Positions 111 to 13,616 of a DNA stretch of 13,616 nt are shown one piece after another. Below the pieces are notes generated by a model. The model did no database searches. It was not told where the DNA came from and saw nothing but the letters and a program-made list of their open reading frames with translations. Source of the stretch: Candidatus Altimarinota bacterium (lineage in GTDB: Bacteria > Patescibacteriota > Gracilibacteria > BD1-5 > UBA2023). Location: positions 301 to 13,916 of the forward strand of contig DNKW01000047.1 of the NCBI GenBank assembly GCA_003488655.1, in the 5' to 3' direction. A program made the position numbers and the translations under genes. Within the stretch, counting starts at the first letter, position 1. Every line of letters starts with the position of its first letter.

Positions 111-1001
111 TTATTCGATGGGATAACTTCCCATTATAGATACATATGTATATGGAGCGTTACTACAGATATTGATATTTCCATTGGTAAATATCATAAC
201 CGTACACGGAGTGAGATTGCTGCCACTTGTCCAACAGGTAGCAGGAAGATAATTCATATCCAATGATGGTCTACCTGCAGATGGAAGGGTTGCAACAGTG
301 GAACACCAGTTATTCTGTGAAGTTCCCGTCATAGCTCCTTTGAATTGCAAGAAACTTCCGATTCGGCGATAAGACAAATCATTATTAGGCGTACCGGTTG
401 GTTGAGTCCAACCCACCCCTGCAGTTACATAACCCCAAGCGGTTGAGGTAGTGAATTTGGTAGCAGTTATTCCACCACTGACAGTGAGAGTATCAGAGAG
501 TGTTGATGTTCCAATCCCCACATTACTATTACCATCAATAAACAATGCTGTATTTAAGCTAATTTGATTATCTGCAGAATCTGCATTACGTATTTTAATT
601 GCAAATGAATTATATCCTGTATCTCCAGAACTTATAAGTTCCGTGCTATTATTACCTCTAAAAATTTGAAAATATCTATTATTATAACTATTAAACCAAC
701 CATACATTTTTAAGAAATTATCTTGCACTGAGGTTGTTGCACGGAGTGTTAATTTCTTATCTGGAACTGTCCCAATCCCCACATTCCCTCCAGAGAATGA
801 AAGATTCGAAAGATTTGTATCCAATACTCCAAGGGCTACAACCATTTTATTCCATTCATTCGCAGTTAATCCTGAACCACTTCCTACAATTGTCGGTAAG
901 CTCGAGATATAGTTCGAATATCCAATAGTCAGTGCTGTAACTGTTCCGAAGAAGATAAGAGCCGAATAAAAGGATTTCTTCCAGAAAGAAAGAGTTTTCA
1001 T
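111..1001 (-). CDS. Membrane-anchored fibre/adhesin-like surface protein
   Basis: The product has 296 residues. A basic start (MKTLSFWKK) is followed by a hydrophobic segment at about residues 12-28, either a signal anchor or an uncleaved signal peptide. Then come LTANEWN (45-51) and two copies of a GNVGIGT-type motif (72-78 and 159-165), each followed by a K/T-LTV-like strand. This motif is common in phage tail-fibre and trimeric adhesin-like beta-structured shafts. The C-terminal part from about residue 188 (GWTQPTGTPNNDLSYRRIG, then FLQFKG) resembles a fibre tip or receptor-binding head. It has four cysteines (233, 256, 266, 279) that could form disulfides outside the cell. I infer a surface-displayed adhesin; a phage origin of the domains is possible. 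The gene contains no UGA and ends at TAA. It has its own promoter downstream of the gyrA terminator and no clear Shine-Dalgarno site. Confidence 0.75.
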   Translation of the reverse strand: MKTLSFWKKSFYSALIFFGTVTALTIGYSNYISSLPTIVGSGSGLTANEWNKMVVALGVLDTNLSNLSFSGGNVGIGTVPDKKLTLRATTSVQDNFLKMYGWFNSYNNRYFQIFRGNNSTELISSGDTGYNSFAIKIRNADSADNQISLNTALFIDGNSNVGIGTSTLSDTLTVSGGITATKFTTSTAWGYVTAGVGWTQPTGTPNNDLSYRRIGSFLQFKGAMTGTSQNNWCSTVATLPSAGRPSLDMNYLPATCWTSGSNLTPCTVMIFTNGNINICSNAPYTYVSIMGSYPIE

Positions 1002-1112: not shown

Positions 1113-3740
1113 TTATTCTTCTGTACTTTCCTCTCCTTCTTCCACAATAACTTCCTCTTCCTCTTCACCTTTCTTCATAACCGTTGCGGTCGTGAAGGAG
1201 TCTTTCTTGTCCTTGAGTTTGGCAAGTATGACTCCTTGAGTGACTCGGGAAGTCGTTCGGACTCCATTGAGGGGGACTCGAACGGTTTGTCCGGTCTTGG
1301 AGATGAGCATGACTTCACCGTCCTTTCGGGATTCTTCACTCAGAAGGCTTACTCCGATGACGTCCCCGGTCTTTTCGGTCATAGCTCCGACCTTGACTCC
1401 GGATCCTCCTCGTCCCTGTTCTCGGTATTCCTCTATATTCGTAATCTTCCCCATTCCGTTCTCGGTTACGGTGAAGACATATTTATCGTTTTCACTGACA
1501 ACGTCCGCTTCAACCACTGAATCATTTTCCGCGATGCGCATTCCACGGACTCCGGCAGCCCCACGTCCCATGACTCGAATGTCTTCTTCCTTAAATTGGA
1601 TAGCTTTTCCATGCTTGGAAACCATGAGTATATTGTCTTCTCCGTTGGTTACACGTACCCAACCAAGTTCATCACCTTCACGCGGCTTCATGACGATGAG
1701 ACCGGAAGTCCGGATATTCTTCACATCTTCCATATCGACTCGCTTGATGACAGCCTTCTTGGAGATAAGCGCGAAGTGCTTTCCAGTAACGGCCGCAAGG
1801 TCAAGGATGGCGGTGATGTCCTCATCCTTCTGAAGGGAGAGGAGATTGATGATCGGTTGACCCTTGGCAGTTCTCTGAGTTTCTGGAATCTCGTACGCGG
1901 GGAGTGAGAATACTCGACCGGTGTTTGTAAAGAACAAGAGATCTGAATGATTGCTCGTGGAGAGAATGATTTTCACCTCATCCTCATCTTTTACCGCAAC
2001 GTTTACTCCTTTCCCTCCGCGTCGTTGGGTGCGGAAAGAAGAGGATTTTATACGTTTCACATAGGAATTCTTGGAGAGGGTGATCACTACTTCTTCGTTT
2101 GGAATCGTATCTTTTGGATTCCATTCTCCGATGGCACCGATCTGAACCTCGGTTCGTCGGGCATCTCCGTATTTATCTTTGATTTCGGTAAATTCATCTC
2201 CCATAATAGTGTTCACTCGTTCCGGATTTGCAAGGATATCTTTGAGATCGGCGATGAGAAGAAGTTTTTCTGCGAGTTCGTCTTCGATTTTCTTGCGTTC
2301 GAGTCCGGAGAGACGTTGGAGTTGCATCTCAAGAATGGCCTGAGATTGCTTGTCCGAAAGTCCGAATCGAGTCATGAGGTTATCATGCGCCTCTTCTTTG
2401 CTGTTGGATTCCTTAATGGTTTTGATAACTGCATCGATATTGTCGAGAGCGATTTTGAGACCTTCAAGGATATGGGCACGAGCCTCGGCAATCATAAGCT
2501 CGTAGCGGGTTCGACGTTCGATGACCTCTCTTCGGTGCACGATGAATTCTTCGAGCATCTCGAGGAGGTTGAAGAGTTTCGGCTGGATTCCTCGATCATG
2601 AAGCGCGATCATATTGAACGCGAAACTCGTCTGAAGTTGGGTGAGTTTGTAGAGTTGGTTCAATATCTTCTTCGGGAAGGCATCTTTTTTTATTTCGATG
2701 ACGATTCGTACATCTCCAAGCCCTTTCGATTCATCTCGGATATCCGAGATTCCGATGATGATTTTCTCCTGGATAAGTTCCACCATTTTGTCGATGAAGG
2801 ATTTTTTGTTGAGTTGGTACGGAACTTCGGTGATGATGATGGCTCTTTTCCCGCTCTTGAGTTCGTCGATACTCGCGCGTCCCCGCATAGTCACCGATCC
2901 ACGACCGGTTGCATAGGCGTTGAGGATATCTTTTTTATTGTAAATGATACCTCCGGTCGGAAAATCGGGACCTTTGATAAAATCGAGAAGATTTTCGATG
3001 GTGATGGTTTCTGAAGCAGGATGATGGAGAATGAAATTGAGCGCATCGATAATCTCCCCGAGATTATGCGGTGGGATATTGGTTGCCATACCTACGGCGA
3101 TACCTACCGAACCATTGAGAAGCAGATTCGGGATGCGAGTCGGGAGAACGGTCGGTTCCTGTGTCGATGCGTCGTAGTTGTCTCTCCAGTCGACGGTACC
3201 CTTATCAATATCGGCGAGCATAAGCTCTCCGAGTTTTGCCATCTTTACTTCGGTATAACGCATGGCAGCGGCATTATCTCCGTCCATGGAACCGAAATTT
3301 CCCTGTCCGTCGACGAGGGTATATCGCATACTGAAATCCTGCGCCATACGAACCATCGCCTCGTACACGGACGAATCTCCGTGCGGGTGGTATTTACCGA
3401 GAACATCTCCGACGACACGAGCGGATTTGCGGTGTTTTCCGGTTGCTCGCACTCCTCCATCGTACATCGCATAGAGGATACGTCTATGTACCGGCTTCAT
3501 CCCGTCTCGGATATCGGGAAGGGCACGCATACAGATAACCGACATCGCATAATCGAGATAACAAGTCTCCATTTCCTCGACGATGGAACGACTCGCATCT
3601 CCGTCGTAATTGATGGAAGTTGTTGAAAACGGTGGCGGAAGCTCGTCGGAATCCTCTGAAGTTTCGTCCCGTATCACGGTCGTTTCTTCTTCGTTTGTTT
3701 CCGTATTTTCGAGTTCTTCCGAAGAGGTATTTTCTGACAT
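1113..3740 (-). CDS. gyrA: DNA gyrase subunit A
   Basis: Gyrase A is the DNA-breaking and rejoining subunit that, with GyrB, introduces negative supercoils using ATP. The 875-residue product has the breakage-reunion core from about residue 52 ([27 protein letters not shown]), the active-site tyrosine Tyr162 in [10 protein letters not shown], and a beta-pinwheel C-terminal domain from about 545. The GyrA box QRRGGKG (572-578) separates it from ParC. The quinolone-site segment is GDSSVYE (121-127), with Ser and Glu at the positions equivalent to E. coli Ser83 and Asp87, so there is no classic resistance change. Two oddities are an acidic N-terminal extension of about 50 residues and an acidic C-terminal tail (EEEEE, EEGEE). 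The gene has roughly 66 Gly codons and no UGA, and it ends at TAA. The ATG start is followed directly by the extension, and no Shine-Dalgarno site is visible. Confidence 0.97.
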
Positions 3741-3976: not shown

Positions 3977-4228
3977 ATGAAAAAAGGCAATATAGCAGAG
4001 GCGGGAACTCGCATCAGGGAGGTTATCGCCGAAGAGCTCGATATCGAGCTCGAAAATGTGAAAAACGAGTCGTCCTTCAAAGGCGATCTCAAGGTCGATT
4101 CGCTCGATATGGTTGAGCTCCTCATGACTCTGGAGGAGGAGTTCGAAATCAGCATACCCGAAGAAGAAGCGGACAAAATCCTGACCGTCCAACAGGCAAT
4201 CGACGCGATAACTGCAAAGCTGCAGTGA
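3977..4228 (+). CDS. acpP: Acyl carrier protein
   Basis: ACP carries acyl chains as thioesters on a 4'-phosphopantetheine arm for fatty acid or other acyl-transfer pathways. The 83-residue acidic product has the arm-attachment motif DSLDMVEL (41-48), with Ser42 the modified residue. It shows the usual four-helix pattern and typical length, ending AIDAITAKLQ. The gene starts at ATG 3977 behind GGGAG and stops at TGA (4226-4228), exactly where ACPs normally end. This conflicts with the UGA = Gly code that the giant gene and the prepilin gene need. Read as Gly, the frame would add about 21 residues and end at TAA 4289, past the terminator hairpin. No fatty-acid gene is nearby. Recent acquisition from a standard-code bacterium, a tolerated extension, or a misassembly are all open. 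Confidence 0.93.
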   Translation: MKKGNIAEAGTRIREVIAEELDIELENVKNESSFKGDLKVDSLDMVELLMTLEEEFEISIPEEEADKILTVQQAIDAITAKLQ

Positions 4229-4285: not shown

Positions 4286-5137
4286 TTATAAAAAGCGAAA
4301 GTAGGAGTCCTTGAAATAGCACTCGTTTTCTATGAAATTGAGCTTGAAATCGGTATATCCTTGCTGATTTTTCTCCATGGAAGAATCACGGAGATGATCG
4401 AAGTTTATGTATTCTATACCCCGATCAAGACTATCGAAAAACCAACGATCGATGAGTCCGGTTCCTGCCTGAAAGGGCTTGGATTTTTTTCCGGTAAAAG
4501 CCACCAAATGCACGCTTGCATTTCCCGAGTAATCATGCACTGCCAGTCCTGCAATAGGAGTATCTCCCTGATAACATACATAACTCCGAATAGTGCTCGG
4601 ATCTATTCCTGCCATGGCTCGATAGTACTTGATATAGTCGGACTTGAAGAGATGTTTGACCTTAACTCCTTGAAAGGCTCGGGAAAAAGTTTCCCTATCC
4701 ACGAGTTCGATATGAATTTCCGGAGAAGTGAATGAAAGGAACTTCTTTCGAGCACGCCTCGCACGTTCATTCCATTTTTTATAGTATTCACCATTTTCTA
4801 TCCGCACAAATCCTGTTCTCGTGAAGTGGGTTCCAACCGCAAGCTTCCTCCATCCCGGCGGGATATCAGTTCGTCGAAACGGAATCCATATGGCAAATCC
4901 GCGCACGAAACCATGGGATTTTAGGAGCTCCTTCGTAGGTTCCGTATCCACACGTTCAAACTTCACGAGTTGCATATATTTTCCAAAGATCCGCTTCATC
5001 CATCCGAAACGAGTACCGTTTTCGAGCGGGATGGTATGTATGTGGCAATGATCTCGAAGATACTTGTTGTAGACGGGAGAGGTTGTCCTATAATAGGTAT
5101 GGTCTTCTGGAAATTCTCTGCGTTCTATTATGGACAT
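4286..5137 (-). CDS. FemAB/GNAT-like acyl or aminoacyl transferase
   Basis: The 283-residue soluble protein looks like the FemAB / Acetyltransf_6 branch of the GNAT fold. It has a basic helix YYKKWNERARRARKKF (118-133) before the C-terminal GNAT half, where FemAB-like proteins place a similar Lys/Arg-rich segment. It also has a core strand IAGLAVHDYSGNASVHLVAF (195-214), a helix after GTGLID (225-230), and a C-terminal GYTDFKLNF (260-268), matching the G-x-x-x-F-K ending of the family. Known members add amino acids from aminoacyl-tRNA to peptidoglycan stem peptides; others are N-acyltransferases. The substrate cannot be read from the sequence. The ATG lies two bases after the TAG of the giant surface protein gene, so the two are almost certainly one operon with coupled translation. 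It might modify cell wall or surface protein. It contains no UGA codon and ends at TAA. Confidence 0.7.
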   Translation of the reverse strand: MSIIERREFPEDHTYYRTTSPVYNKYLRDHCHIHTIPLENGTRFGWMKRIFGKYMQLVKFERVDTEPTKELLKSHGFVRGFAIWIPFRRTDIPPGWRKLAVGTHFTRTGFVRIENGEYYKKWNERARRARKKFLSFTSPEIHIELVDRETFSRAFQGVKVKHLFKSDYIKYYRAMAGIDPSTIRSYVCYQGDTPIAGLAVHDYSGNASVHLVAFTGKKSKPFQAGTGLIDRWFFDSLDRGIEYINFDHLRDSSMEKNQQGYTDFKLNFIENECYFKDSYFRFL

Positions 5138-5139
5138 GG

Positions 5140-8100
5140 CTAATAAGATATTTCTAAGTTATAACTATTTGAAATCGTATAAATTCAGGCCGATTGCATT
5201 GAATTAATCAATGCTCCGTATTTTATATCGTACGTATAGGCTTTCAGTGCCCCGCTTGATTGCAATTCTCCCGTTTGAGTCGCTATATTTTTTGATTTGA
5301 AGTTTTCCAGTATCGTACAGCTATTTCCCACACAGGCACCATATCATCCAGCTCCGGTCCAATCGGCCATACTGGATCCGGTATAGGTATGATTGAGACT
5401 GAATCAAGCTCCTATGGTATTGACGGTTACGGTGATATCGGTGTTTGCTAATTTTTGTACATCAGGCTCGAGGGTTCATAAATCTATACTTCCGGTACTG
5501 ATTGAAAAACTAAAATTATCAACGTAAAATATCTCTTGGGTGGAGATGGCATTTCAAGAAGTGTCGGATATACTGAAAGTTGCCTTGTACTTTCAGAGTG
5601 TAAGTCAAGACAGTGTATAGTTTGCCTGAGAAACACTGACGCTTCCGGTACTGAAGGAAGAATTGGCAACAAAGTTTGATCCGTTCCATTTCTCCAATGC
5701 AAAACTGATACTTCCGGTATTTATTCAGATGGTATCGTTATAATCATAACTCAGATCATAGTATCACAGTGGCAAAATCGTATCATTCGCCATATTTGAG
5801 TTCAGAGTTGGGTTCGTAGCATCGAGGACATTTGCAGTTTTTGGCGTTCCTTTGTAGGAACCGTTCACAAATCCATTGGAAGCAACCGCACCATACCAGC
5901 AAGCGCTCGACAGACCATTTCAACATCCGGCGGTTCTTTCCAGAGAAGTATTATTCACTCAAGCTTGGTACAGGGCGCTATCAACCGATATCGTTCCATT
6001 TTTTAATATGAGATCGGTGGTGATAGACAAAGCTGCCGTTTGGTTGGAGATTACTCAGGAATAAGACAGATCGTTCGTGGAGATGAGATAATATCCGTTT
6101 GCTGAAACCTGCGGACTCGCCGGAATCGTATAGTGTACGCCATTTCACAAAGCATTTTCGATAACCCATCCGGAGATATCCACATTTGCCGAAGAGATGT
6201 TTTTCAATTCGATATAGACAACATCTCACACCGACATTACTTCATTTAGAATTACGGAAGCCGATATCTTTGCAAAAGAAGCGAGTGTCTGTTTATTTCC
6301 GAGAGAGTCTCCGGCAGCACTGGAAGCAAAGGATATCTCAGAAGTTCCGTAGGTGATTCCGGTTCCGGTCAGATTGATGACGGCAGTGTTGTTTCAGGAA
6401 ACGAAAGTTGTGGAAGATATGGTCGAGGTTGCTCAGGAGAGGGTAAACGACGCATTATTGAGACTTCATGAAACGGTCTCTGAAAATACTATGTGCAAGT
6501 CCTGAGTTCATTCATCGAATCTTGCGGACAAGATAACCGGTCAAACCGAATCCGAAGCCGTGTTTGATTGAGAAGCCAATATGATATTTCATCAAACATC
6601 GGTGAGAGCGGAGTTGGAATTGATAGTCACTATCGGTGTTGAATCCGTGTCGAATATCGGCTTTTCGTTCAATTTCACGATAACTTGCGTACTTCCGCTC
6701 ATGGCATACGTTCAAACCATATTTAAACCATAGGAAGAGGCTCAGATATTGATATCGGAAAGATTCGAGTTCAGTCATTCGCTAAAATTCAGCAAAACAG
6801 AATCGATTTTTCCGTTTCCATTCGAATCAAGGGTATGGGAAGAAAGGAATCTCGGCGGTATTTTTTCAGCAAGCGCTGAGTTTGTGAGAGATGCCACGCT
6901 GTTTGCACTGCCATCGCTCAAATCTCAAGCATAACTCACGGTAACAACCGGAACTGTTCCGGAAATCCCGGATACTCACAATACTATCTTGTTTCCTCCT
7001 ATCAGGCTTGTAGAACCAATACTTCCGGTGCTTATACTGAAGCCCGAGAGAGTTCCGGTCAGACTTTCGGAGAAAGTCAACTCGACCGTATCGGCAATAT
7101 AATCGCCATTCGAATCTTTTATAAGAGAGGAGAGGAGAACCGGAACGGCTTTGTCGGATAGATTTATGGCAGTTCCTAGACTTCCGGCTTGATTATTCGA
7201 GCCGTCTTTCCAGTTGGAATTGGAAGTAAAATCGAGAGTATAGCCCGTGCTGTCGGTATGAACGCTTCATAGATTGAGATTCAAAGTCGCTTTAGTTCCG
7301 GATGTTGAAACCGAAGAAAGAGTCAATCCATTATTGAGCGTAAATGCCGTTACATCGGTGGTTGAGGAGATATTTTCCGAGAAAGTCACTTCTATTCTAT
7401 TAAATATCCCGGAAGCATTTGCGAAAATATCGGCAGAAGAGATTCTTGGTTCTGCGGTGTCGGTGGATGGAGAAGGCGAAACATTTTCCAGAAATTTTCC
7501 GGCAAGATCTACCAAGGCTCCTTTTGTATACGTGAGAGTTGGAATGGTTGCCGTGGTTCCGGTATTGGAAAACCTCAAGAGAAAGACACTATCGTTTGCA
7601 CTGTTTCCCGTCTCCCAAGAAGTAGGAACTCAGATGGAAGATATGCTAAAATTTCCCAAAACTATACTGGAATCCAGTATGCTTTCGCTCATAGTGAGCT
7701 TCAAGGCATCAATCTGTCCATCGGCTGACATATCCAGAGTTTCGATGCTTTGGATCTGCGGTGGAGTGGAATCGATCAGTATCTGACTGGATGCAATGGA
7801 ATTTGAAGCGTTTCAAATACCATCCATTGCTGAAATAAGTATCGTAATGCTATCGTCTATTGCGGGGAGATTGAAACTATGACTTCCATCATTCAAAGTA
7901 CTGCCCGTAATGACGGTAATAACCCCGTTGTTGTTGTATTCTAACCGCAAGTGAGAAAAAGATGCTCCGGAAGCTGTTATCTTTGCGGGATTCCAGGTTA
8001 TGTCAAAACTGCTTCAACCGGCATAAAATCATGCCGGAACAAAGGTGAACACATCATTTTCAATAACGGGTCAGGTCTCGTCCAAGACGATATTGATAGA

Positions 8101-11100
8101 TTGTGAAGCCGTATTGTTTGTTTTGTACGATTTATCATAGGCATGCACTATGACCCCGTAAGCTTGTCCATCAAGATCCGCCCCTGGTGCCGTGAAATTA
8201 TAATTCCAGTTCGCATAGCTGTTCGTTGTCGTTGCAAGAAGGAGTTGTTCGTTACCGACCCAGTTTGATCCATTCCACCACTCGGCTCATTTCTTGATCT
8301 CGAGATTCACGGAGCTTATCGTGGAACCGGTATCGGACGATGTTCCCGCTAAGAGCAGAGATCCGCTGAAATAGGTTCCGCTCGCTGTCGTGACCGCAAG
8401 AGTTGGGTTTATCGTATCTCCGATAAAGGTGACTTGAGAAGTGGAGAAAGTATTTCCAGTAATATCATCCGCCCGGAATTTGAGTTTGTAATAATCACCG
8501 TTGGTGATGCTGGAAGTGATGGTGGAAGATAGATTATAGGAACTTCCCGTGGACGTTCCGAGCAGATTCCAAACTTCCGTGCTTCCGGTATAGGTTGTTC
8601 CGCTGAAATAGACATTGGCTGTCTGATTGAAGAGAGAATAATAGATATTCCCTCCGGACAAATTATTGTCGCTTACGGTCGCCGAAACATCGAATCAGGA
8701 GTTATTGATATAGGAGTTCGTCTGAGGAGTGGATCATCCGATTCCGGCATAACTTATGTTTATGACAGGAAGGGTAGAGTCGATCTCGAAGGTATTGTCG
8801 CTCGTATCGAAAGAAATATTTTGAATATTGTCCGTTGCTGTTATCTTGATCTTCATGGTGGCAATATTGAGGACAGGAACCAACCACGCATAGGTTCCGT
8901 CGTTCGCCTCGCTTGTGGCTATCTGAGTATAATTGGTTCCAGAGTCCGTAGAATAATAGAGTGTTATGGGATTGACGGCGAGTCATCCGGCATCGGTGAT
9001 ACTTCCGGCATTCCAGGTGATGTTCACGCTCGTTCATCATTTGAGCTTTATTCAGGCGACACTTGGGTACGTCAGGGCATTAGCAGGAACCGTCGGAGCT
9101 ATTTTGTCCACAGAAAAAATACCGGATGTAACCGATCAGGTATTGTCGGCCATATCATAGGCGGTGATTTTGATCTGATAATCTCCAGAATCTATGCTCG
9201 TCAAGTTCCATATGTAGGGAGAAATATTTGCTCCCGTTCCAATAGGATTCCAAACAGCCCCCGACAAATATTCGAATTTCAAATAACGTATACCGATGTT
9301 ATCGCTCGCTCCGGCAAAAGTGATGGACATACCGCTTCAGCCATAGACGGAGGAGGTAACCGGAACGATCAAGCTTGGAGGAGTCGGAGCGGTATTATCC
9401 AGAGTGATGGAAGTGAGAGTCGTTCCTGTATTGATTCCGGCTATGTTGGTCGCAGTGAATTGCACCTGCTTTGTGGCACTGGACAATGACCCCAAAGCCC
9501 CGGTAGCGAAGGTGAAAGTGGCGATGTTTGACGCAAAATTACAAGTCACTCCTGAAACCGGTGTCGCACAGGAGATATTCGCATAGGAACTATCGTTTAT
9601 GCTGCTCGCATTCAACCATATGTGTCAGGAGTCCGTATTGGTGATGGTGGAACGTATGATGAGAGTGTTTCCTCCTTTCGTGTATGATGTGCTATTTAAG
9701 ACCGTATCCGTTATAGAGGACGCAGAGAAGCTCGGAACGTCCGTATTTATATAGAAATTATCACAACTGCTGATCGTTCCGACATTTTCCATATTGTCAT
9801 ATGCATAAGCCCCCCAGGCATAGTTATAGAGATTCGAGAGAGTTATACTCTTCGACAAAGAGCCGAGATCGGCATGAGTATATTCCACATATGCTCCGGT
9901 ACAGGTTTTCCAGCTCGTATAGGTCGTCGATCCCGTATATACCCGCAGTTTATATCACTTAACTCCGGATCAGTTCCCACTATCGTCCGTCGTGCTGAAC
10001 CATGTAAAAGTCGGAGCAAGGAGACCGAAGACTTTGTTCGGTCAAAATGGGTTCAGAGACACGATGCTTGGCCCGACATTATCGAACTTGATGGTGATGG
10101 GAGCGGAAGTGGTCGTATTTCAGGAGAGATCTTTGGCTATCAAACTTGCCTCATAATACGTACCGGAGACAAGCCCGAGAGAAGAGAGATTTACCGTTTC
10201 GCTGTGTGCTCAAGAAGTGAGCTTCGCAGAATCGGAGATATAATAGACTTTTGAAGTATCGGCATTTCATCATACTCGGGTAAACAGTATCTGTGTATTT
10301 CCCGCTCAGAGAAGATTCTCGCTTACGGTATAATTGAAAACCAAGCTTCCGGAATAGAAATCGGTATAATATGAGACGGTTCCCGTAGAATAACCGGTTA
10401 TGCCCGGATTTATGGCGTCTCATACGGCGATTCATCAAGAACCGTAATTGTATGATCCATCAACCGGCACTCACCAAGCCGCTCCTGTAGCGACGGTCAA
10501 AATCCCCGTTGCGGAAGTGCTTCCCACATCGGGTATGAGGACATTAATAATATCGTCGGAGATGGACGATATGCTCGTTCCGGTATAAGTGACAGCTCCT
10601 ACTTGGTAGACGAATCCGGTGGCAAAATGACTTCCAGTGTCGGTTTTAAGAGCGGTGTCAAACTTCACTCGGAGATTTCCGGTCGAGGTAAAGGAGGCCG
10701 ACAGTACGGACGGATGAGGTACTATATCTGCCACCAGCGTTCCGGTTGCCGAAGCGGCACCTCACAAATTACCGGATGTTCCCATGATGGCAATGTAAGC
10801 TACATAATTTCATGAGGCAAGGCTATTTCATAAACTGTCATTGAGTATGTTGCTCGATCCGGTCCAAGTAGTCGCTCCGGAATTGGAGACGAGCCCTATA
10901 TAGGTTCCGGTGAAGGCAGTATTTTCCGGAAGTATGTAGAGTCGATAGGATTCAAATCCGACGTAAGAGGTAGCTACGGCACTGTCCCATGTGATTTTGA
11001 TATCCCTTCCATCCACTCAATCCCATCAGATGTCATTGTCCGTTACGGTGAGCCCGGAAGAGGTCATGGCGGGAGTTGGTGCCACTTTCGATACGGAAGT

Positions 11101-12534
11101 AGTGGCAGTGGATTCATTTCAGGCTGCGTCCTTACAATAAGTCGTTATGGTATTAGCTCAGACATTGATATTGGCATTGGGTAGGGTAACCGTATACGGG
11201 GTATTTGCCGTGGCGGTGAGATATCAGGTGTCAAAAGCGTTCATAACCGCTTTGTATTGTCCGTTTTCACTACACTGAAAAGAGAGCGAAGAATTGTTGG
11301 TGATGACGCTTGCCGGAGTAACGGTGATGCTCGAAATCGTCGGAGCGGCGGTATCTTTTGTGATGACGGTATTGGCACTTCCTATATCGCCCACGTCATT
11401 TTTGATACAGGTATATACGGTGTTTGCTCCGTCAGACAGCGATCAAGCGGACACGATGGAATCGACAGTCGCTCCAGTAGCATACGCGCTCCAGTCGGTA
11501 ACAATGATTCATGCCGAACAAGATCCGTTACCGTTTATAACCACTTTATAGGTACCGGACTTGTCCCCGGAGAAAGATACGGTGGAATTTTGGCTCGAAA
11601 CTATGGAAGGATTGGTACCCGATATCGTTACAACGGGAGCGACCGGATTGGCAACCGTCAGAACAGAGTCGGTTTTTTTATCCTCATCGTCAAATGTCGT
11701 ATTGGGATCGGTTGGACTCGTAAGGTTATTGTTTTCGTCTTTCGCGGTAAAGTCCGTGTAGGCAAAAGTCTTGTCTCATACGGCGGAGAGAGTCGTAATA
11801 CCTATTTTTTTGAAGACGGCAGTTTTCCCGTCCGCCTCGCAAGAATCGTAGGTGAGACTCTCTGAGGAGGAGAGTCACAGGGCGCTGAGATTCGCTGTCA
11901 CTACCCCCGCATCCACATTGGAACAACCGTTATAGTCCTTTACTTTCATAGTCAGGTCCACACTGTCGGCCCCGTTTCCCACTACGGATGATTTGGAGAA
12001 GCTATAGTCCGTAATATGGGGTTTTACATTCGCATAAATGACCAACTGAGAAATCCCAGAGTTGGCCTGATCGGATGTAAATTTTCAATAAATATAATTC
12101 TCGTAAGAAGAAATGGTAGAACTTATGGAGAAATTATTAGTTCCGCTATTCAGAAAAATCTTCGGTTCTCCGTTAACGGCCAAACTGGAAGTCACCAAAG
12201 AGCTCAATCAACTGGTACTGTTGTACTCGGTGGTCGCGATATCTCGCTGTTTCGTCCATCCTATATACGCTCCGTTATTTCCGATGAAGGAAAAATTGGC
12301 ATTATCGGAAAAGTAGATATATCCGTAGATATTCGTCAGTATATCGGTTCCATTGTTTTGTCCGTCGATTTGAACCTTAAAAGAATCCCCGGGATTTTTA
12401 TAGATAGTGGAAGAAGCTCCATTGATGAGCAATTGAACGACCCGTAAAGAAGCGGCAGCAAAAGCTTGGTCTATGCCAAGCGATGAGATGATTATAGAAA
12501 CTATAACCAAAAAAGAAACAATTTTTTTGAACAT
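5140..12534 (-). CDS. Giant secreted multi-Ig-like surface protein with a lamin-tail domain (genetic code 25)
   Basis: With UGA read as Gly this is one uninterrupted frame of 2464 residues ending at TAG; I checked every line for in-frame TAA or TAG. The signal peptide runs from MFKKIVSFLVIV to a cleavage site near QAFA/A (26/27). A DUF11-like N-terminal part follows (about 27-145). Many Ig- or FN3-like modules follow, with phrases such as DAAGNES, DLSGNTT and DGIGNAS. Five repeats of about 100 residues (about 1599-2092) carry TFSE-type strands. A lamin-tail domain covers about 2093-2232 and more beta-rich sequence ends at ISY. I see no LPXTG, C-terminal membrane segment or autotransporter barrel, so the mode of anchoring is unclear. 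About 68 UGA codons are used. Paired cysteines occur mainly in the N-terminal third (for example FQCSENGQYK and TTYCKDAAG). I infer an extracellular adhesin or a structural surface fibre. It has its own promoter and lies upstream of the FemAB-like gene. Confidence 0.93.
5839..6258 (-). other. Lamin-tail domain (LTD) within the giant protein
   Basis: Residues about 2093-2232 read SVILNEVM, VYIELKN, VDISGWVIENAL, GYYLISTND, LILKNGTISVDSALYQAG, TSLERTAGCGNG and GSYKGTPKTAN. The order (ILNE opening, E-L-x-N strand, DISGW, a late S-x-E-R, then G-x-P beginning the last turn) is that of bacterial LTDs, a beta-sandwich found in secreted and surface proteins. Four glycines in this domain are encoded by UGA (in VGDVV, NALGNG, YSGVIS and YQAGVN), plus one in AGCGNG. 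Confidence 0.75.
6259..7740 (-). repeat. Five tandem Ig-like protein repeats of about 100 residues
   Basis: Repeats begin near residues 1599, 1698, 1799, 1899 and 1999, a very even spacing. Each opens with a short D-rich segment and then a strand ending in the signature SE: LTMSES, VTFSEN, LTFSES, LNFSEG, VFSETV. This is the pattern of SbsA-type bacterial Ig-like domains. Three openings look like calcium loops: DMSADGQID, DSNGDYIAD and DSNGNGKID. The sequences are diverged, so these are old duplications. Confidence 0.65.
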
Positions 12535-12738: not shown

Positions 12739-13616
12739 ATGAGTGCAAATAATATGGATACAAGTAAAAAATTCCGAGCCTTTACCCTCATAGAGCTCCT
12801 CGTTTCCATCTCCATCCTTGCGACTATCTCTATCGTCGCGTATACATCCTACTCGGGGCATATGAAGATTGTTAGCAATGCCACTCGTATAGCAACCATC
12901 GATTCTCTCCACCTGAGTCTCAGAGATTATTATCAGATGAAGAAAGTTCTTCCAGAACCAAATTCCAACTATATTTCCTACGACGAACGTGGAACCTATA
13001 TGCACTCGCTCTCCTGAGCGTATGGGGTATCCGGTCATGTAACCTATGATTTCTTGCCTGCTGGATACGTGAATTTTCAAGCCACCGATCCCGAGAGCAA
13101 CCAGTTCTACGGATACGGAAAGACACTCGGTTCCACGACGGAAGACGGTAACGATGAAAATGACGCAAAGTTCGATGTCGCAGCCGTGCTCTACGATGAG
13201 AAAACCGGAGGATACAAAACCTATATAAGGGGAACATACGAGAAACAACGTCTTTCTTCTCTCATCCGAGCGTATTCTTCTTCGAACTTCGTATCTCAGG
13301 ACTCGACGGAAGATCTTCCGTATAATCCCTATGAACGGAAGATTACCGCCTCTGTTTCAAGCTATTCAGGAACCGTCAAACTCGAAAATGACAAGGGAGA
13401 ATCACTTTCTCTCACGGGAGAATTGAATTCTTGAGACATAGTAAGAGTTGCAACAGGTGCCAATGCTCTCCTCCATATCTCTGATGGTTCCGAACTTTCT
13501 CTCGGAAGCGCCACGGCCGAAACGGTACTTAAACTCACTTCGCTTGCCTACAACGATGATAATAATCTCGCCTCCAAAGTAGCTCTCTGGCTCAAATCCG
13601 GGGAAGTCTGGACAGA
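12739..13616 (+). CDS. Type IV prepilin-like protein with C-terminal FecR-like domain (partial, code 25)
   Basis: The frame runs from ATG 12739 off the right edge (292 codons visible) when UGA at 13015 and 13432 is read as Gly. The N-terminus is a type IV prepilin signal: a short basic leader ending KKFRA, then FTLIELLVSISILATISIVAYTS with Glu at +5. The residue before cleavage is Ala and not the usual Gly. An ATG at 12754 would also work, with a 9-residue leader. The middle part (about residues 95-225) is polar. From about 231 the sequence (GDIVRVATGANALLHISDG, SELSLGS, VALWLKSGEVWT) matches the FecR beta-domain pattern: G-x-V, D-G-S, then L-x-x-G-x-V-W. In classic FecR this domain senses outer-membrane transport. 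Here, on a pilin stem, I infer an extracytoplasmic surface-exposed module. The UGA at 13015 gives LSGAYGVSG in good pilin-like context. Confidence 0.85.

Follow-up and report, generated by a model that had tools for sequence, protein, structure and literature searches.

The reading of UGA as glycine and the existence of giant surface proteins in the candidate phyla radiation (CPR) are already known, and the former is the established code of the Gracilibacteria group (PMC4032931, PMC11452946, PMC8629427). The window analysed here, a whole stretch of 13,616 nucleotides of contig DNKW01000047.1 from a Candidatus Altimarinota bacterium, carries on its minus strand (5140..12534, ATG at 12534, stop codon TAG at 5142-5140) a gene for a giant putative surface protein of 2464 amino acids. 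By description, this protein can be likened to the predicted giant membrane or surface proteins, up to 4163 aa, which part of PMC8080830 reports for Vampirococcus lugosii, a predator of the Absconditabacteria that also reads UGA as glycine. In common with the fibrillar adhesins, as portrayed in part of PMC8286594, it has a signal peptide and stalk-type beta-sandwich domains strung in a long chain, but it differs in having no recognised adhesive domain or anchor; according to the same part of that survey, a known anchor was not found for nearly half of the fibrillar adhesins. Two NCBI entries of Ca. Gracilibacteria named 'lamin tail domain-containing protein' (P0009 and P0017) are collinear with the window protein over 100% of the query, at 48% and 43% identity, and have the lamin tail domain (LTD) near the same place, but they belong to other species and, in the libraries used, nothing except the LTD gave them a family or function name. 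Repeated stalk domains were recognised by fold and motif in the window protein, and by Pfam over the cut-off just in P0017 (Big_13). Within the paper library searched, no paper paired 'Gracilibacteria' with 'lamin tail domain'. Default annotation cuts up or mistranslates large surface proteins of uncultured UGA-recoding bacteria. The correct reading reveals a conserved family with a common C-terminal module, which may be a display route for contact proteins, and orthologues of sister lineages with and without recoding provide a codon-by-codon record of a reassigned stop spreading in a gene.

The open frame and the meaning of UGA

The giant frame contains 68 TGA codons, no TAA and a single TAG, the terminal one, where base composition predicts about 53 TAA, 39 TAG and 39 TGA per frame; the five other frames across the same interval hold 10-44 TAA and 6-42 TAG. 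Direct counting confirmed the first-pass annotation, which had described one long frame of 2464 residues with about 68 UGA codons, no internal TAA or TAG and a TAG stop. Under table 11 the frame falls into 65 pieces, the longest of 135 codons; those that possess a start codon and reach 60 aa or more number 8, near the mark of the roughly ten short open reading frames (ORFs) expected there for the standard code. The statement that the protein is visible only with UGA as Gly went too far, because any code with UGA as a sense codon opens the frame and the searched protein collection already carries a code-4 version: entry P0008 is the table-4 (UGA = Trp) translation of the window protein, letter for letter. 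Ten UGA-reading genes of the family, the window included, are open end to end, and the relatives measure 2507-2598 aa from stop to stop. The relative G045 was matched as two adjacent, slightly overlapping pieces in two frames, and its giant gene has a frame break or an assembly fault.

The meaning of UGA was read from aligned orthologues. In a codon alignment with the close relative L001 (68% identity), the 68 window UGA codons face 31 UGA, 28 GGN and 9 other codons and never Trp, and window TGG codons face Trp at 24 of 26 sites; against L003 they face 40 GGN, 3 UGA, 24 other codons and one gap, with no Trp. Two further relatives, G034 (2377 aa) and G012 (2070 aa), have a giant gene with zero TGA codons. 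Gly stands opposite window UGA at 33 of 60 aligned sites in G034 (one unreadable; background 6.9%, binomial 6e-23) and at 21 of 47 in G012, Trp at none in either gene, and window TGG faces Trp at 10 of 20 sites in G034. Release factor 2 (RF2) was over its family cut-off in G034, G012 and G018 (3 of 10 genomes of one set) and in 10 of 14 controls, and in 0 of 11 plus 0 of 7 further UGA-reading genomes. A tRNA with a UCA anticodon was found in the relative G001, where 30 of 36 tRNA matches were scanned; it is known by its anticodon, and the ARAGORN label SeC does not establish a glycine identity. The glycine codons of the orthologues, the RF2-keeping relatives and the UCA tRNA of G001 together make UGA = Gly a well-supported reading for the window lineage, as had been proposed at first pass. 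On the other side, L001 has a residue other than Gly opposite 9 of the 68 window UGA codons, and the RF2 and tRNA searches covered relatives' genomes. We put the probability that the giant frame is one protein with UGA as glycine at about 0.97.

Reading UGA as tryptophan (code 4), as in the collection's copy, also leaves the frame open, and Trp-rich, code-4-like translations make up 16 of the 19 family rows P0008-P0026, the window's own (P0008) included; it is hardly credible beside 0 of 68 window UGA codons facing Trp in L001, L003, G034 or G012, and beside TGG codons which mostly face Trp where aligned and conserved. A decayed gene would account for 68 standard-code stop codons in frame, but is just as hard to credit, since TAA and internal TAG are both at 0 where composition predicts about 92 in all, and ten UGA-reading and two UGA-free genes are conserved end to end. 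A second codon, CGG, is perhaps Trp in some Gracilibacteria according to a passage of PMC8629427. It is kept as Arg here, because opposite the three CGG codons of gyrA every one of the 8 alignment cells that hold a residue has Arg (a further 4 are gaps); the four CGG codons of the giant gene are uninformative, never facing Arg in G034 or G012 and once Trp in G012.

Domain anatomy and proposed function

The giant protein is very probably a secreted surface protein. By eye, residues 1-26 (12457..12534) form a Sec-type signal peptide with a K-rich start, a hydrophobic core and AFA before the presumed cut; hydropathy over 19 residues peaks at residues 1-23, and the best value past residue 40 is 1.58. 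A beta-rich N-terminal head (residues 29-294, 11653..12450), poorly modelled at about 60-160, has a fold like Gram-positive pilin or adhesin domains. It is followed by three Ig/FnIII-like beta-sandwich domains (residues 298-605, 10720..11643) with Cys 339, 376, 421 and 467, which are presumably paired. Further on, motifs point to four Ig domains at residues about 1589-1994 (6553..7770), which we take from the motif to be of Big/SbsA type; FSE-type motifs occur in 4 of the 4, and DxNxNG-like loops, putative Ca2+ sites, in 3 of the 4. The LTD (PF00932, residues 2091-2186, 5977..6264) scored 38.3 bits against a cut-off of 34.3, and a C-terminal Ig domain (residues 2241-2340, 5515..5814) precedes the tail. 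From length and boundary motifs, the whole protein is estimated to contain roughly 20 beta-sandwich domains. The predicted structures are all-beta, with SbsB/SbsC, BcpA and SpaP as fold neighbours. A family-profile sequence search of PDB gave nothing at E <= 0.01 with a profile that includes code-4 rows. The signal peptide, the LTD and the all-beta models bear out the secreted, multi-domain, surface-type architecture suggested at first pass. A phage origin was considered and rejected; the viral fold library gave just low-TM, low-identity rows among the best 50 listed.

An adhesin or fibre role is the most likely one, as judged from architecture, fold resemblance and the relatives' lifestyle, and we lean towards a contact fibre rather than a coat. 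A cell-contact lifestyle is described for the wider group in parts of PMC8080830 and PMC11452946. In the mechanism we propose, a Gracilibacterium decoding UGA as glycine would make one 2464-residue secreted protein, which the signal peptide would direct through Sec. The beta-sandwich domains would form a long rod, some of them stiffened by Ca2+, the terminal-tyrosine module would sort or hold the protein at the envelope, and the N-terminal head would face outward and bind a partner or prey cell. Fast evolution together with gain, loss or replacement between close relatives is as expected of a contact protein. Several observations weigh on the other side. Adhesive domains and known anchors were not recognised with Pfam and NCBIfam, the published adhesive-domain list not having been compared one by one. 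The predicted template modelling (pTM) scores are 0.50 and 0.35, too low for the models to fix how the domains are arranged in space; residues 1-160 and 825-998 are largely badly modelled, and the model alignments are noisy, with 7 of 13 and 7 of 12 rows code-4-like and carrying Trp at UGA sites. The protein is also not essential to the lineage, because 3 of 6 close relatives, all of them possibly incomplete metagenome-assembled genomes (MAGs), lack a match, and an intact locus without the gene was seen in L004.

A lattice or coat component similar to a surface layer (S-layer), with the Ig chain packed side by side on the envelope, is a minority possibility. The S-layer proteins SbsB and SbsC are by fold chains of Ig-like domains like the window protein, which differs from them in having no SLH domain and shares 9-13% identity with them in fold alignments. 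An extending hook or predation fibre acting like GhpA of Aureispira is less probable still. Foldseek matched the N-terminal model to GhpA fragment 6 (9flw_A) with E 5.9e-10 and TM 0.42 by target and 0.27 by query, and part of PMC8080830 describes the predatory Vampirococcus in the related Absconditabacteria. But the match has 14% identity and ranks 44 among many generic Ig/FnIII chains, GhpA is not among the best 50 matches listed in the other fold search (VIA), and GhpA extends beyond residue 4078 by its entry title. Its host presumably belongs to another phylum, which we also count against a GhpA-like hook.

The terminal-tyrosine module

The tail of the giant protein (residues 2341-2464, 5143..5514) is a candidate envelope-sorting or anchor domain, and it is the part of the finding most worth following. 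A profile of the last ~135 residues, built from 13 sequences, matched 29 ORFs at E <= 1e-3 in L176-L205, 6 of the giant family and 23 other proteins; these stretches had been chosen for earlier matches, and two of the 23 (from G011 and G008) helped build the profile. Tyr is the C-terminal residue in 25 of the 29 ORFs, stands next to last in 3 and in neither place in 1; the giant protein of G007 continues for two residues past its Tyr. A database search with the module of the 1421-aa G011 protein returned 33 proteins, of which 32 have Tyr as their last residue. The remaining one is a record labelled partial, and P0048, one of the 32, ends unlike the others; all 7 of the source-named proteins come from Ca. 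Gracilibacteria. Among the best stretches listed within the E limits of the scans, no Pfam family covered the module in the window protein or in the six other proteins scanned. Not every genome has several copies of the module, because in G001 the stretches scanned by profile held no second tail-bearing ORF and the C-terminal 231 residues gave 1 match in the genome.

Omp85/BamA was detected in 0 of 10 family-carrying relatives, all possibly incomplete MAGs, against 7 of 14 controls, which makes it improbable that the terminal aromatic residue serves as an outer-membrane barrel signal. Sortase genes and SLH domains are both present in all 10 family-carrying relatives. The giant protein has no LPxTG-like motif, no C-terminal membrane segment and, in the Pfam scan, no SLH domain. 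Because it lacks LPxTG and SLH though sortase and SLH occur in the relatives, the module may be a candidate third display route beside these two. NCBIfam contains models of the C-terminal domain of the type IX secretion system (T9SS), and none matched at E <= 1; SprA was found in 0 of 10 relatives, with none of the controls positive either. We hold as a tentative idea, at clearly less than even odds, that the module is a novel signal for C-terminal sorting or anchoring, met so far only in Gracilibacteria and RF2-keeping kin, which displays a whole class of large surface proteins, among them the giant one, in bacteria where Omp85 was not detected, and which is older than UGA recoding in this lineage.

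Family, spread of UGA and gene neighbourhood

The giant proteins form a collinear family of about 2070-2600 aa on both sides of the code boundary. Of 192 genomes sampled from the class, 9 match the family profile end to end (G001, G197, G006, G122, G070, G082, G034, G012 and, in two frames, G045), and G018 matches it in pieces; some match occurs in 94 of the 192, many of these matches being confined to the LTD, to the C-terminal module or to an Ig stretch, and the counts are lower bounds because a first look let through few candidates from each genome. Twelve genes entered the codon comparison, which left out G018 (pieces on two contigs) and G045 (two frames), and the alignments left out P0014, P0026 and the weaker partial matches P0027-P0031. 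In the tree of 12 giant proteins, made with a quick method from sequences of uneven composition, a branch with full support has G034 and G012 together on one side; a giant protein older than UGA recoding would fit, and a later transfer is also possible. In the GyrA tree these two are neighbours of a cluster formed by 17 UGA-reading rows (support 94, not starred). That tree does not demonstrate that the code arose only once, because the UGA-reading G082 sits outside the cluster on a very long branch. The gyrA match of G082 (L227) is just 40% identical and may represent a different topoisomerase subunit or a fast-evolving line; those of G122 and G070 (L219, L221) contain 1 and 2 TAA codons, perhaps alignment ends or assembly faults. 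Replacement between lineages seems to happen, since the giant-protein tree places G197 together with the window and the GyrA tree does not. Between the window and L003, identity is 93% for GyrA, 79.5% for the neighbouring acetyltransferase and about 40% for the giant protein. A family match was found in 3 of 6 close relatives. L001 and L003 have the giant gene beside the same acetyltransferase and gyrA; at L004:5331-6311, a prepilin-like gene and the acetyltransferase gene are 122 bases apart, with the giant gene absent between them.

The share of UGA among Gly codons of the ten UGA-reading orthologues is 0.66-0.82 at 27-30% guanine plus cytosine (GC), 0.12-0.29 at 37-45% and 0.03-0.05 at 51-60%, falling as gene GC rises (Spearman -0.84, p 0.002, rows not independent). 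With G006 as outgroup, 25 sites have UGA solely in the window and 3 solely in L001, and UGA has spread within the window's own lineage. GC does not explain this difference, at 45% in the window gene and 43% in that of L001; the window's branch is the longer one (0.32 against 0.13). UGA makes up 68 of 234 Gly codons in the giant gene against 0 of 66 in gyrA (Fisher 6e-9). Two long soluble ORFs of G001 (1336 and 1177 aa), which we take from their place and ends to be RNA polymerase subunits, have UGA at 1 of 97 and 0 of 99 Gly codons. Avoidance of UGA by housekeeping genes is only a lead in accounting for the contrast with gyrA, because other long soluble ORFs of G001 hold 18% and 33%. A special link between UGA and surface proteins found no support in a survey of 780,788 of the ~1.1 million bases of G001 (605 ORFs picked greedily by length, secreted-like by crude hydropathy), where the UGA share of Gly codons was 12.7% across all ORFs, 10.7% among the 95 that look secreted and 14.2% among the 356 lacking a signal or membrane segment. 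Two long ORFs of this genome (C1:35869-38619 and C1:282407-285310) reach 81% and 56%, against the 12.7% over all called ORFs, and are perhaps acquired DNA.

The window belongs to Ca. Gracilibacteria on the basis of the GyrA identity (93%) and the GyrA tree. Its gyrA (1113..3740, minus strand, 875 aa), the lineage marker, encodes a protein 90-93% identical to those of six Ca. Gracilibacteria MAGs (L001-L004, L014, L023), with which it groups in supported sets (quick tree, 25 rows). The acetyltransferase gene (4286..5137, minus strand, zero UGA) starts 2 nt past the stop codon of the giant gene, and its GNAT/FemAB-like product matches PF13480 with 23.2 bits against a cut-off of 22. A 296-aa protein with an N-terminal hydrophobic segment is encoded at 111..1001 (minus strand, zero UGA) and had no match at E <= 1 in Pfam and NCBIfam scans. 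The Rfam scan of the window gave nothing over threshold. An ORF at 3977..4228 (plus strand), which we take from its sequence to encode an acyl carrier protein-like product, ends in TGA where L001 has TAA. Under UGA = Gly it would gain 21 residues across a terminator-like hairpin, up to the TAA at 4289-4291; the stop may have been lost recently, the sequence may contain an error, or UGA may still act in part as a stop. The prepilin-like gene (12739..13614, plus strand) is divergent from the giant gene, has an N-methylation motif and runs off the window; its two UGA sites are one GGA and one TGA in L004. The prepilin-like protein of L004 (L004:5331-6188, minus strand) has a C-terminal part weakly like FecR (16 bits, under the cut-off of 24). 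In L001 the acetyltransferase gene (L001:8379-9401) contains an in-frame insert of ~171 bases near 8990-9164, giving 340 codons from the ATG against 283 in the window, and this insert is perhaps a small mobile element.

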